A stretch of DNA of 64,000 bases from Pantoea sp. Ep11b (lineage in GTDB: Bacteria; Pseudomonadota; Gammaproteobacteria; Enterobacterales; Enterobacteriaceae). The DNA is taken from NCBI RefSeq assembly GCF_040783975.1, contig NZ_CP160631.1:2604001-2668000 (forward strand), given 5' to 3'. The position numbers and the translations under genes were made by a program. A model generated the notes under the pieces. It searched no databases. It saw only the letters and a list, made by a program, of their open reading frames with translations, and was not told the origin of the DNA. Shown piece after piece: positions 54,885-63,952 of this stretch (the stretch's first letter is position 1; each line of letters begins with the position of its first letter).

Positions 54885-55191
54885 TTTTTTCCATCCTGAG
54901 AGATGAGACGTAACTGTATCGCAGAAAATTATCTGCGGTTCGAGCTGCTGTTTATTAAATCAAAAGATGGCAAAGAAACCTTCAGCTAACCTTAATGCCA
55001 TGCTTTCTGCCTTCTGTTTTTTGTGGGTTTCAGACCCACCGAAGGTCAAAAATCCATGCCATTTTATTTTCGAGTTCTGGTCACCTTCCGTGATGTCTTC
55101 TTACGTTTTTTAGGACTAATCCGAAAACAACGCAAATCTATATCGTCTGTTTTCGACATACAACGACAGCCAGATGAAATTTTAGATAAAG

Positions 55192-58305: not shown

Positions 58306-58479
58306 TCATTGACAGGGGTTACGCCAGAAATATGCAGTTTTTATGCCAGCCGCTGCGGTTAAATAAGCAGAAAATCGCTCCGTCAGCATGCGCTCTTTCA
58401 GAGGATGCCGCCGGTTCCGGTCCGCCAATGGCTGGAGTTCATTCTGTGCAGCGGGCTGTCCAGCAGGCCGCGCTCAATC

Positions 58480-58505
58480 CTTAAGGCTCTTAAGGTATTC
58501 CTAAT
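58480..58505 (+). promoter_or_regulatory. PmrA box upstream of eptA, with an extra half-site
   Basis: CTTAAG (58489-58494), five bases, then CCTAAT (58500-58505) fits the PmrA pattern YTTAAK-N5-YTTAAK with one mismatch. A further CTTAAG stands at 58480-58485, only 3 bases before the first. The eptA ATG is 50 bases downstream, so the whole operon is probably self-activated. Confidence 0.75.
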
Positions 58506-58554: not shown

Positions 58555-60183
58555 ATGGCGTTTACCCTTAAAAGGCCGCTGATTAGCCGCCTCAGCTTGC
58601 TGATCGTCGCTGCGATCTACATCGCAGTATGTCTGAACATCGCCTATTACCGGCAGGTGCTGGCGGTGATGCCGCTGGATAGCCTTCGCACCACGCTGGT
58701 ATTTTTATCGATGCCGCTGGTCGCCTTCAGCGTCATCAATATCGTGCTTACCCTGGCCTCATTTCTCTGGCTGGACAGGCTGCTGGCCGCCCTGTTTATC
58801 CTGGTCTCCGCCTCGGCGCAGTTCTTTATTCAGACCTATCACATCGTGATCGATCGCTCGATGATCACCAATATGATGGATACCACGGCGTCAGAAACCT
58901 TTGCACTCATCACGCCGCAGCTGATTTTTACGCTGCTGACCTCTGGCGTGCTGATGGCCCTGCTGGTGTTCTGGCCACGGGTGAAACGGCAGCAGTGGCG
59001 CGGGATGCTGGTACGCCTGCTCAGCGTGGTACTTTCGGCTGCGCTGATCGTGCTGGTCGCCCTGCTCTTCTACAAAGATTACGCCTCGCTGTTCCGCAAC
59101 AACCGTGAACTGGTAAAAGCACTGAGTCCGTCGAACAGCATCGCCGCGACGCTCTCCTGGTATAAGCATCAGGAGTTGCAGAACGTACCGCTGGTGCGCA
59201 TCGGTGAAGATGCGCATCTGCTGCCCGATCACAGCACAGGTAAACCTCAGCTCACCATTCTGGTGCTGGGCGAGACCTCGCGCGCGCAGAACTTCTCGCT
59301 GGGCGGTTATGCGCGGCTGACCAACCCTCTGCTGGCGAAAGATGATGTGATCTACTTCCCGCACACCACCTCCTGCGGCACGGCGACCGCAGTGTCGGTG
59401 CCCTGCATGTTCTCCAACATGCCGCGCGCCCACTACGACGATGTGCTGGCCGCCCATCAGGAGGGGCTGCTGGATGTGATTCAGCGTGCCGGGATCCGCG
59501 TGTTGTGGAATGAGAATGACGGGGGCTGTAAAGGCGCCTGCGATCGGGTTCCGCATCAGGATATGACCAGCCTGAATCTGCCCGGCATGTGTATCGATGG
59601 CGAATGCTATGACGATGTCCTGTTCCACGGTCTGGAGACGTACATCAGCCAGCTGAAGGGCAACGCGGTGATTGTGCTGCACACGATTGGCAGCCACGGG
59701 CCGACTTACAGCCATCGCTATCCGCCGCAGCTGCGTCAGTTTGCCCCGACCTGTGACACCAATCAGATTCAGGATTGCTCGCAGCAGCAGCTCATCAACA
59801 CCTATGACAATACGATATTAAACGTGGATCACATTGTTGATAAGGCCATCGGCATCCTGCGTGCGCATCAGGATCGCTTTACCACCAGCCTGGTCTATCT
59901 TTCTGATCACGGGGAATCGCTGGGCGAAAATGGTGCCTATCTGCATGGCCTGCCCTACGCTATCGCCCCGGACACGCAGAAACATGTCCCGCTGCTGCTC
60001 TGGCTGTCACAGGATTATCAGCAACGTTTCGCGGTTAACCGCAGCTGTCTGAACAAACTGGCCGCGACAGACGATTTCTCTCAGGATAATCTGTTTTCCA
60101 CTCTGCTGGGATTAACCGGCACCGCAACCCACGAATATGTGCCTGCGGATGATATTTTGACATCGTGTCGGAGCCAACCTTAA
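58555..60183 (+). CDS. eptA: Lipid A phosphoethanolamine transferase EptA (PmrC)
   Basis: A 542-residue inner-membrane enzyme with five N-terminal membrane helices (to about residue 175) and a periplasmic alkaline-phosphatase-like domain. The domain holds [15 protein letters not shown] with a metal ligand, [14 protein letters not shown] with the catalytic threonine and [16 protein letters not shown] with further metal ligands. It moves phosphoethanolamine to lipid A phosphates and so gives resistance to cationic peptides and polymyxin. The ATG at 58555 fits E. coli EptA; the frame is open 50 codons upstream but that extension covers the PmrA box. Its stop overlaps the pmrA start (TAATG). Confidence 0.94.
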
Positions 60184-60863
60184 TGAAGATACTGATTGTT
60201 GAAGATGACGCCCTGCTGCTGCAGGGGTTGATGCTGGCGCTGGAAGGTGAAGGCTATGTCTGCGACGGCGTGTCGCGGGTGCGCGATGCCGAGGCGCACT
60301 TTGCCAGCGGCCTCTACAGTCTGGTGGTGCTGGATCTGGGTCTGCCCGACGAAGATGGGCTCCATTTCCTGATCCGTCTGCGGCGGCAGAAGAAGATGAC
60401 GCCGGTGCTGATCCTGACCGCGCGCGACACCATCAGTGAGCGCATCGCCGGACTTGACGCAGGCGCTGACGACTATCTGATTAAACCGTTTTCGCTGGAT
60501 GAACTGCTGGCGCGGATCCGCGCCCTGATCCGTCGTAACGTCAATCAGGGTGACACTCAGGTGAGAGTGGGCGCACTGGCGCTGGATATGACGCATCGTC
60601 AGATCTCGCTCAGCGATGTGTTACTGGACCTGACGCCTAAAGAGTTCGCGATTCTGTCACGCCTGATGCTCAAGGCCGGCAATCCGGTGCACCGCGAAAT
60701 TCTCTATCAGGATATCTACAACTGGGAAACTGAGCCTTCGACCAATACCCTGGAAGTGCATATCCATAATCTGCGCGACAAGATTGGCAAAAGCGCCATC
60801 CGCACCGTGCGCGGCTTTGGTTATGCGCTGGTCACGCAGGATGCGCTTCGTGAGGCAACATGA
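60183..60863 (+). CDS. pmrA: Response regulator PmrA (BasR)
   Basis: A 226-residue OmpR-family regulator. The receiver domain has the acidic pair in VEDDA and the phospho-acceptor Asp51 in [12 protein letters not shown], with Lys101-type LIKPF; the C-terminal winged helix follows from about residue 125. PmrA-P activates lipid A modification genes from the YTTAAK-N5-YTTAAK box. Two such boxes are in this window, at eptA and before the small protein gene at 61915. Confidence 0.95.
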
Positions 60864-61918
60864 TAAGACGTTTCGATCATCGCAGTATGCGCTTTCGCCT
60901 TATTCTGACCATTGGCCTGATCCTGCTGGTGTTCCAGGTGATCAGCGTGGTCTGGCTCTGGCACGAGAGTAAAGAGCAGATTCAGTTTCTGGTGGAAGCG
61001 CATCTGCAGAAGCGCAATATGGACAGTAACGTCGAGCGCGAAGTCCGCGAAGCCGTGGCCAGCCTGGCGGTGCCGAGTCTGGTGATGATCACCCTGACCC
61101 TGCTGCTCTGCTATCAGGCGGTGAAATGGATCACCCGGCCGCTTTATCGCCTGCAGAGAGAACTGGAAAGCCGCAGCGAAGAGAATCTCGACCCGGTGGC
61201 CTGCCACAGCCAGGTACAGGAGATCGATGCGGTGACGCAGGCGATCAATCAGCTGGTGGCCCGTCTCAACAGCAGCCTGGAGCGCGAGCGCCTCTTTACC
61301 GCCGATGTGGCGCATGAGTTACGCACCCCGCTGGCCGGTCTGCGCCTGCATCTGGAGTTAATCGAACGTCACAGCGATGTCAAAGTTCAGCCGCTGGTTC
61401 AGCGACTGGATCAGATGACCCACAGCGTGTCACAGCTGCTGAGTCTGGCGCGCGCCGGACAGTCATTTACCTCCGGCACCTATCAGAACGTGGGGCTGAT
61501 TGAAGATGTGATTCTGCCGATGGAGGCGGAGCTGAGCATCATGCTGGAGGCGCATCAGCAGACGCTGCTGCTCGATCTGCCGCAGGAGCATTTTGTACGG
61601 GGTGATGCGACGCTGCTGAAGATGCTGCTGCGGAATCTGGTGGAGAATGCCCATCGCTACAGCCCGGAGAACAGCACCATCAGTGTGCATCTGCTCGCGT
61701 CACCGCAGCCGATGATGGTGGTGGAAGATCAGGGACCGGGGATCGATGAGAGTAAAAGTGGCGAACTGAGCAAAGCTTTTATCCGGATGGATAGCCGCTA
61801 TGGCGGGATAGGTCTCGGGCTGAGCATCGTCAGCCGCATCGTCCAGTTACACCGGTTTAAGTTTTTCCTGGAGAACCGTCGCGATCAAAGCGGCTGTCGG
61901 GCCGTGGTCCGGTTTTAG
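60860..61918 (+). CDS. pmrB: Sensor histidine kinase PmrB (BasS)
   Basis: A 352-residue sensor with two membrane helices (about 13-34 and 71-90). The short periplasmic segment between them has Glu36 and the Glu61-x-x-Glu64 motif, which in Salmonella PmrB bind Fe(III). A HAMP domain follows, then the phospho-acceptor His152 in [12 protein letters not shown] and a degenerate-looking ATPase domain ([32 protein letters not shown]). It should sense ferric iron, acid or cationic peptides. It overlaps pmrA by 4 bases. Confidence 0.95.
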
Positions 61919-62034
61919 GCGCTGAACCAGGCCGAGAGAAACAGAACGACCGTCGCGGCGGCAATCAGCAGTGCAGCATATTCGCTGACCGGACGCGGGG
62001 TGGTAACAGGCAGGTCAGCAGAGACAGTTTTCAT
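61915..62034 (-). CDS. Small membrane protein, 39 residues, under a PmrA box
   Basis: The ATG at 62034 is preceded by GAGGAGG at ideal spacing. The product has a polar N-terminus (MKTVSADLPVTTPRPVSEY) and one hydrophobic helix ([20 protein letters not shown]). The stop overlaps the 3' end of pmrB on the opposite strand by 4 bases. A consensus PmrA box stands 42 bases upstream on the same strand. In Salmonella a small PmrA-activated membrane peptide, PmrR, blocks the lipid A kinase LpxT; a similar role here is attractive but is inference, and I do not see sequence similarity that proves it. Confidence 0.8.
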   Translation of the reverse strand: MKTVSADLPVTTPRPVSEYAALLIAAATVVLFLSAWFSA

Positions 62035-62075
62035 GGCATCCTCCTCAGTTGGAGCAGGCAGTATCGCGACTGCAT

Positions 62076-62092
62076 ATTAAGGAAACCTTAAG
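62076..62092 (-). promoter_or_regulatory. Consensus PmrA box before the 39-residue membrane protein gene
   Basis: Read on the minus strand, CTTAAG-GTTTC-CTTAAT matches YTTAAK-N5-YTTAAK at every fixed position. It is oriented towards the small gene at 62034. The neighbouring plus-strand flavin reductase gene lies the other way and has its own sigma-S-like -10. Confidence 0.88.
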
Positions 62093-62167
62093 CTCAGGAT
62101 GCTGCCGCGAAAATGGCGGTAAACCGTCCGTCTAACCCGCCACCCGCCTGCTGCATCCGCAGCGTGC

Positions 62168-62178
62168 TCTACACTTAA
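62168..62178 (+). promoter_or_regulatory. Sigma-S-type -10 element of the flavin reductase gene
   Basis: TCTACACTTAA matches the sigma-S extended -10 consensus KCTAYRCTTAA completely. A start of transcription near 62184 would leave a leader of about 24 bases before the ATG at 62208. Confidence 0.78.
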
Positions 62179-62207
62179 TGGCTACGTTCCGTTGACGGAG
62201 TGACGCT

Positions 62208-62774
62208 ATGAGCCCGCGCATGCACAAATATGCTTTTCCGGTCAGTAAAGCCCGCAAATATCTGGAACCTGGTCCGGTGCTGCTGCTCAGTTCGCAGTAT
62301 CAGGATCACCATGACATCATGACCCTCGGCTGGCACACCGTGCTGGAATTTTCGCCCTCCCTCGTCGGCTGTATGATCGCGGGGGTGAATCACAGCCATG
62401 AGCTGATCCGCCACAGCGGCCAGTGTGTCCTGAATATCCCCTCCGCCTCGCTGATTAATGAAGTGGTTGCCATCGGCAACAGCCACGGCGATCGGCTGGA
62501 TAAATTCAGCGCCTTTAACCTGACGCCGGAACCGGCCCAGGTGGTGAACGCGCCGATGATCGCCGAATGTTTTGCCAGCTTCGAATGTCAGCTCTATGAC
62601 GACGCGATGGTGGACCGCTATAACCTGTTTGTTTTTGAAATTGTCAAAGCACATGTCGCTGAACAGCCGGAGTACCCCGCGACCCTGCACTACACCGGCG
62701 AAGGCCGGTTCAGCGTGATGGGCGATAAAATGCTGGATAAGAGCGGCGATTTTAAACCTGAGATGCTGTTTTAG
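62208..62774 (+). CDS. Flavin reductase-like FMN-binding protein
   Basis: A 188-residue protein of the flavin reductase/flavoredoxin domain family. PVLLLSSQYQDHHDIMTLGWHTVLEFSPSLVGCMI is the FMN-binding region, followed by VLNIPSASLINEVVAIGNSHGDRLDKF. Members bind FMN and hand electrons to a partner oxidoreductase; the partner here is unknown. A sigma-S-like promoter just upstream suggests a stress or stationary-phase role. The ATG follows ACGGAG. Confidence 0.83.
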   Translation: MSPRMHKYAFPVSKARKYLEPGPVLLLSSQYQDHHDIMTLGWHTVLEFSPSLVGCMIAGVNHSHELIRHSGQCVLNIPSASLINEVVAIGNSHGDRLDKFSAFNLTPEPAQVVNAPMIAECFASFECQLYDDAMVDRYNLFVFEIVKAHVAEQPEYPATLHYTGEGRFSVMGDKMLDKSGDFKPEMLF

Positions 62775-63623: not shown

Positions 63624-63711
63624 GGTGAGGTGTCCGAGTGGCTGAAGGAGCACGCCTGGAAAGTGTGTATACGGCAACGTATCGGGGGTTCGAATCCCCC
63701 TCTCACCGCCA
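63624..63711 (+). tRNA. serW/serX type: tRNA-Ser(GGA)
   Basis: An 88-base serine tRNA with the long variable arm, and the CCA end is encoded. It matches the E. coli serW/serX tRNA except near the acceptor 3' strand. The anticodon GGA is at 63658-63660 and the T-arm GGGGGTTCGAATCCCCC is intact. The acceptor stem GGTGAGG pairs with TCTCACC with one G-T pair. Confidence 0.97.
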
Positions 63712-63784
63712 CATTCCAAAGAAGAGCCTGAACGAAAGTTCAGGCTTTTTTTTTGCATATTGCACTGCGAGAGGGGGTGAGAAG
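63694..63784 (+). repeat. tRNA-Ser tail repeat, copy 1
   Basis: This 91-base segment begins within the T-arm of the tRNA gene, includes its last 18 bases and the terminator, and ends at GAGGGGGTGAGAAG. It recurs 169 bases later with a single T missing from the T-run. Confidence 0.95.
63725..63754 (+). terminator. Intrinsic terminator of tRNA-Ser
   Basis: AGCCTGAAC-GAAA-GTTCAGGCT with a run of nine T, directly after the tRNA. Confidence 0.95.
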
Positions 63785-63862: not shown

Positions 63863-63952
63863 ATCCCCCTCTCACCGCCACATTCCAAAGAAGAGCCTGA
63901 ACGAAAGTTCAGGCTTTTTTTTGCATATTGCACTGCGAGAGGGGGTGAGAAG
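63863..63952 (+). repeat. tRNA-Ser tail repeat, copy 2 with second terminator
   Basis: A 90-base copy of 63694-63784, identical except for eight rather than nine T. It contains the last 18 bases of the tRNA, CCA included, but no tRNA body, plus a second functional-looking terminator (stem at about 63894-63915). Confidence 0.95.

Follow-up and report, generated by a model that had tools for sequence, protein, structure and literature searches.

A predicted pmrR gene opposite pmrB in Pantoea and its probable relatives at other chromosomal and plasmid addresses

The 64,000-nucleotide stretch of the Pantoea sp. Ep11b genome analysed here (contig NZ_CP160631.1, positions 2,604,001 to 2,668,000; hereafter the window) contains a 39-codon frame opposite pmrB that is a genuine gene and is very probably the pmrR of this Pantoea, encoding a predicted PmrA-induced inhibitor of LpxT as in E. 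coli. In E. coli the pmrR promoter has a PmrA box, the 3' end of the gene overlaps pmrB and PmrR inhibits LpxT, according to the accessible part of PMC8129183. The same small open reading frame (ORF), with a 25-bp pmrB overlap, is described in the portion of PMC8004244 that was available, and excerpts of PMC13405929 report pmrR to be up together with eptA and the arn genes in E. coli B adapted to Fe(III). No report of PmrR in Pantoea or Erwinia was found in the open-licence literature. A sequence-only reading of the window had pointed to the frame, a GAGGAGG site, one membrane helix, a perfect PmrA box and a 4-base overlap with pmrB, all of which are borne out at the coordinates given in Table 1.

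Table 1 Features of the eptA-pmrA-pmrB locus and of the small ORF opposite pmrB (positions in the window).
Feature	Position	Strand	Basis
eptA	58555-60183	plus	NF008619, 914 bits (cut-off 660); start taken from the beginning of the model match, listed frame opens at 58405
PmrA-box-like site before eptA	58489-58505	plus	11/12, 1 mismatch
pmrA	60183-60863	plus	NF007928, 358 bits (cut-off 330)
pmrB	60860-61918	plus	NF008025, 555 bits (cut-off 314)
pmrR-type small ORF, 39 aa	61915-62034	minus	ATG start; frame, profiles, selection, hydropathy
4-base tail overlap of small ORF and pmrB	61915-61918	both	ORF coordinates
Ribosome-binding site GAGGAGG	62040-62046	minus	read from sequence; 5 nt before ATG
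-10-like element GATACT	62060-62065	minus	10 nt after box
PmrA box CTTAAG-GTTTC-CTTAAT (CTTAAGGTTTCCTTAAT)	62076-62092	minus	12/12 to YTTAAK-N5-YTTAAK

The small ORF lies antisense to pmrB in the eptA-pmrAB locus, the two genes overlapping at their 3' ends, and past it follow a flavin-reductase-domain gene (62208-62774, plus strand) and msrA. Elsewhere in the window, an exact 60-nt direct repeat (63694-63753 and 63863-63922) takes in the 3' end of tRNA-Ser(GGA) (63624-63711) as well as a hairpin carrying a T run; after it comes a second exact repeat of 38 nt (63747-63784 and 63915-63952), and the repeats at the tRNA end look like a duplication or insertion scar.

Judged by Kyte-Doolittle hydropathy alone, the product is a tiny protein with a single hydrophobic membrane helix, best placed at residues 20-37 (best 18-residue mean 2.34), and its N-terminus is about 10 residues longer than that of K-12 PmrR, with no net charge before the helix. 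Searches of Pfam and NCBIfam with the 39-aa protein gave no match, in keeping with the earlier description of the gene as unannotated, yet it is conserved and under purifying selection. Close copies (67-82% identity) occur in 7 of 35 other same-genus genomes (60 genomes searched, its own included), all of them adjoining pmrB, and copies are present in 10 named records of Pantoea, overlapping in part with the seven and including P. anthophila LMG 2558, P. agglomerans NBRC 102470, P. conspicua and P. brenneri; the frame is thus conserved in relatives, the comparison that the sequence-only reading had proposed. Over 13 distinct sequences (78 pairs), dN/dS is 0.18 overall, rising to 0.32 in codons 1-15 and falling to 0.10 in codons 16-39, the helix part (74 of 78 pairs computable), ratios that are approximate because dS is high (median 0.86) and near saturation. 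Differences at the three codon positions number 688/269/1234, so that the third position dominates. A lack of protein constraint had been named in advance as grounds for giving up the gene, and these ratios contradict it. A chance ORF is disfavoured for the 39-codon frame. Across 47 distinct proteins encoded at the pmrB tail, F32 and W36 are invariant, and this pair together with the helix is likely to form a contact surface.

The same figures bear on a reading in which what is conserved is the box plus an antisense RNA covering the end of pmrB, with the frame incidental. The ORF transcript would indeed overlap the end of pmrB, and no terminator-like site was found within 61700-62300, but an incidental frame sits badly with the excess of third-position changes and the low helix ratio, with a frame kept in 48 loci and with family members that have the same promoter and no pmrB match nearby; we consider this reading exceedingly improbable.

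The PmrA box is the sole site in the window that fits YTTAAK-N5-YTTAAK without mismatch, and it had rightly been called better than that of eptA. Perfect matches number 8 genome-wide versus 6 for a reversed control pattern, so the box alone is weak evidence; it stands above chance because it is conserved across the pmrB loci that have the ORF. Another PmrA-box-like site, with 1 mismatch (CTTCAGCTAACCTTAAT, window 54980-54996, plus strand), is not followed by any obvious small membrane ORF. Of 197 family genomes, 96 yielded a PmrB ortholog (95 over cut-off), as did 32 of 34 further same-genus genomes, and 130 pmrB loci from 127 genomes were surveyed, excluding a partial match in genome G177. 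A box of at least 11/12 on the antisense strand, within -60 to +350 of the pmrB stop, is present in 48/48 ORF-bearing loci and in 0/81 readable loci lacking the ORF (82 before one at a contig end, L164, was left out), against 0.54 of 48 loci expected from single-base shuffles. The box scores 12/12 in 37 of the ORF-bearing loci and 11/12 in 11; since it is nearly symmetrical, the opposite strand also reaches 11/12 in 21 of the 48. From box to ATG the distance is 41 nt in the window and 40-46 nt from box to start across the 48 loci, a range narrowed somewhat by taking, of the in-frame starts, the one closest to 42 nt from the box (45 ATG, 3 GTG). An ATACT-type -10-like element stands at one spacing in the 48 loci (conserved columns A 98%, A 90%, C 88% and T 98%). 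A sigma-70 scan found no promoter for the small ORF, as would be expected if the promoter depends on an activator and lacks a -35 element. With a perfect box in its promoter at a conserved spacing, the small ORF is a predicted member of the PmrA regulon.

The near symmetry of the box also leaves room for a role at the divergent flavin reductase gene, towards which, read on the plus strand, it has 1 mismatch. Its distance is nevertheless fixed relative to the small ORF in 48 loci, three loci (L009, L010, L014) combine ORF, box and msrA with no flavin reductase match, and K-12 has proP in that place, which makes such a role very unlikely.

Kinship with PmrR is seen in both position and profiles. 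K-12 pmrR (b4703) occupies the same place on the antisense strand and likewise overlaps the 3' end of basS/pmrB, and the PmrA box and its spacing, the single helix and an F-x3-W core are common to the window ORF and PmrR of E. coli K-12 and Salmonella (NF033224). The two differ in length and C-terminus (29 aa ending in WFATY in K-12, 39 aa with WFSA in the window) and in tail overlap, 25 nt in K-12 against 4 bases here; the antisense overlap noted earlier is therefore present without being special to this lineage. Identity to K-12 PmrR is 25%, which counts against the PmrR reading. Profiles were compared over a pool of 3603 ORFs of 22-110 aa, of which 114 are tail ORFs (antisense, with a stop at most 60 nt from the pmrB stop). 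The top 31 ORFs for a K-12-type hidden Markov model (HMM; 5 sequences) and the top 19 for a Pantoea-type HMM (8 sequences), seeds included, are all tail ORFs. Both separate profiles reach three ORFs (L165, L190, L166) at E<0.02, and three more (L161, L183, L148) score well on the Pantoea-type profile and 0.07-0.16 on the K-12-type. An iterated HMM from both seed sets retrieves 48 tail ORFs and zero other ORFs at E<0.01, a tail match at an obgE locus (L098, E=0.57) having been dropped before the counts. The window ORF is thus, by position and profile sequence comparison, a relative of PmrR beyond a mere analogue: the sequence-only reading had named the right protein, and its word 'analogue' was too weak.

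The NCBIfam PmrR model NF033224 (cut-off 30 bits) gave no match to the window ORF at E<=1. At E<=0.01 it matches 17 of the 47 distinct proteins encoded at the pmrB tail (Pfam, 0/47) and is hence narrow, so that the window ORF is not filed under this equivalog. Over 99 family genomes it yields 5 matches above cut-off, the window's genome not among them; its weaker matches are mostly chance-like, and those in two genomes (G068 and G133) adjoin pmrB and were later recovered as family ORFs. Annotation misses the pmrR of Pantoea because the protein has drifted.

A candidate target for the peptide is at hand, given that the window's genome encodes one LpxT (G000:C1:2974453-2975133), 61% identical to that of K-12. 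At E<=1e-8, 122 of 127 pmrB-bearing genomes gave an LpxT match, and the other five (G257, G143, G156, G195, G203) gave none. Family members at any address occur in 95/122 LpxT-bearing versus 0/5 LpxT-less genomes (p=0.0008, the genomes not being independent), or by genus in 45/64 versus 0/4 (p=0.011, uncorrected for relatedness); a match in G086 (L310, 19 aa, box 7/12) was dropped before these counts. The association of pmrB-tail copies alone with LpxT was not significant (p=0.16), and 19/64 LpxT-bearing genera showed no family member. By analogy with E. coli and from this co-occurrence, the window peptide would act as a brake on LpxT.

A peptide descended from PmrR and induced by PmrA might instead have PmrB or EptA, not LpxT, as its main target, and a direct regulator of either had indeed been offered by the sequence-only reading. 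The window ORF adjoins pmrB and some relocated copies adjoin eptA; moreover, in the available part of PMC7790251, artificial Dcr peptides need PmrA, PmrB, ArnT and EptA, not PmrR or LpxT, and the pmrB downstream region, the site of pmrR, departs from the prediction of a simple feedback model in the passages seen of PMC8004244. The Dcr peptides resemble PmrR as small peptides acting on the PmrAB pathway, but, as the accessible text of PMC7790251 has it, they were selected from random sequence and work via PmrAB without PmrR or LpxT. Copies away from pmrB are common in the family, E. coli PmrR acts via LpxT (PMC8129183, in its accessible part) and the five LpxT-less genomes have no family member at all, so direct action on PmrB or EptA is less supported and, to our mind, unlikely.

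From the observed gene, promoter layout, protein-level selection, PmrR kinship and single LpxT, we propose the following course for LpxT inhibition. Fe(III) or mild acid, sensed by PmrB, would lead PmrA~P to bind the box and transcription to start from the ATACT -10 element; a short leader would be translated into a 39-residue single-helix inner-membrane peptide, which would bind and restrain LpxT as in E. coli and Salmonella. With LpxT held, the lipid A 1-phosphate would not be converted to the diphosphate and would be left free for EptA, and fewer negative charges binding Fe(III) would feed back on PmrB.

Where the pmrB-tail copy is missing, many genomes carry a relative at another place under the same promoter, and no tested genome held a pmrB-tail copy together with a copy at another address. 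pmrB itself varies in setting: it adjoins ObgE in 38 of 130 loci by tblastn (ObgE model-confirmed in one, L085), and a second pmrB with its own pmrR lies on a separate contig in two genomes that each hold another pmrB (L187, G006:C2; L188, G034:C19). In the latter genome (L012) a pmrR copy stands opposite the second pmrB, between that pmrB and arnT. A plasmid search with the window protein gave no match, whereas one with a relocated relative found three Pantoea plasmids. The relative lies between fetA and a formyltransferase resembling the N-terminal half of ArnA on pPAT9B01 (Pantoea sp. At-9b), near arnB and an RND adaptor in P. soli, and between fetA and eptA in Pantoea sp. BRR-3P; the peptide gene is absent from the gene lists of the three records, PLSDB gene tables being incomplete. 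The box of relocated Pantoea copies scores 10-12/12 and stands 41-45 nt before the start, taken again as the one closest to 42 nt; the exception is L028/L230 with 10/12 at 53 nt.

A further address (38 loci read, L274-L311) is found in other genera and in four same-genus genomes. Here the ORF lies between crcB and cspE in 23 loci and beside cspE in 4; in 10 it has crcB on one side and, on the other, a TetR-like gene with an MFS-like gene after it (both labels assigned by eye), and in 1 it has none of these neighbours. Without the doubtful L310 and the context-free L302, the crcB/cspE address comprises 36 loci in 22 genera. Of the 38 loci read, 21 have PagP within reach, and Pfam confirmed CrcB and PagP in L244 and L254. 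A box of at least 11/12 at 34-61 nt before the start is found in 34/38 family ORFs compared with 45/1554 small ORFs of these loci. These ORFs share with the pmrB-tail ORFs one hydrophobic helix, a related core in profiles and a PmrA box at similar distance, but lie away from pmrB and often have W replaced by F or Y. A model of them (A6) has the window ORF as its single match at E<=0.01 in the window's genome and a pmrB-tail ORF as best match in 29/48 pmrB-tail genomes, five other matches being weak (E>=0.007); in the reverse direction, on the pmrB-tail model, they score E 2e-8 to about 0.5, some weakly (L310 apart). Common descent of the two groups is likely, not proven, from these sequence comparisons.

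Of the 48 pmrB-tail genomes, 30 were read at their best crcB match, and none showed a family ORF there (0/30 versus 37/79, p=5e-7). Two biases affect this test: genomes of the second group supplied the sequences for the model, and in six of the 30, which have second crcB copies, only the best match was read. In eight of the 30 the crcB locus contains a box of 11/12 or 12/12 without a family ORF; several of these boxes sit roughly at the presumed start of pagP and could be PhoP sites. No report linking crcB and pagP with PmrA, or a small membrane protein with a PmrA box, was found in the open-licence literature.

Counted by genus, the pmrB-tail address is occupied in 23 genera and the crcB/cspE address in 22; the window's genus enters both counts through different genomes. 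PmrR as a kind was already known; this Pantoea member is new, and what merits further attention is the hidden family that changes its address. We think it rather likely that PmrR is the tip of a large, mostly unannotated, address-changing family of one-helix peptides with a PmrA box, in which promoter and peptide travel as a unit (pmrB tail, crcB/cspE, and Pantoea plasmids near eptA, fetAB and arn), never with both types together and absent without LpxT, so that PmrA would brake LpxT by a peptide in most of the pmrB-bearing Enterobacteriaceae (GTDB) genera sampled (45/68). With the window gene, the feedback loop of E. coli and Salmonella would be extended to Pantoea, a plant-associated genus. 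The curated model recognises no more than about a third of the pmrB-tail PmrR proteins, and the 47 natural variants show which residues matter (F32, W36). The generality of one peptide-LpxT brake becomes testable.
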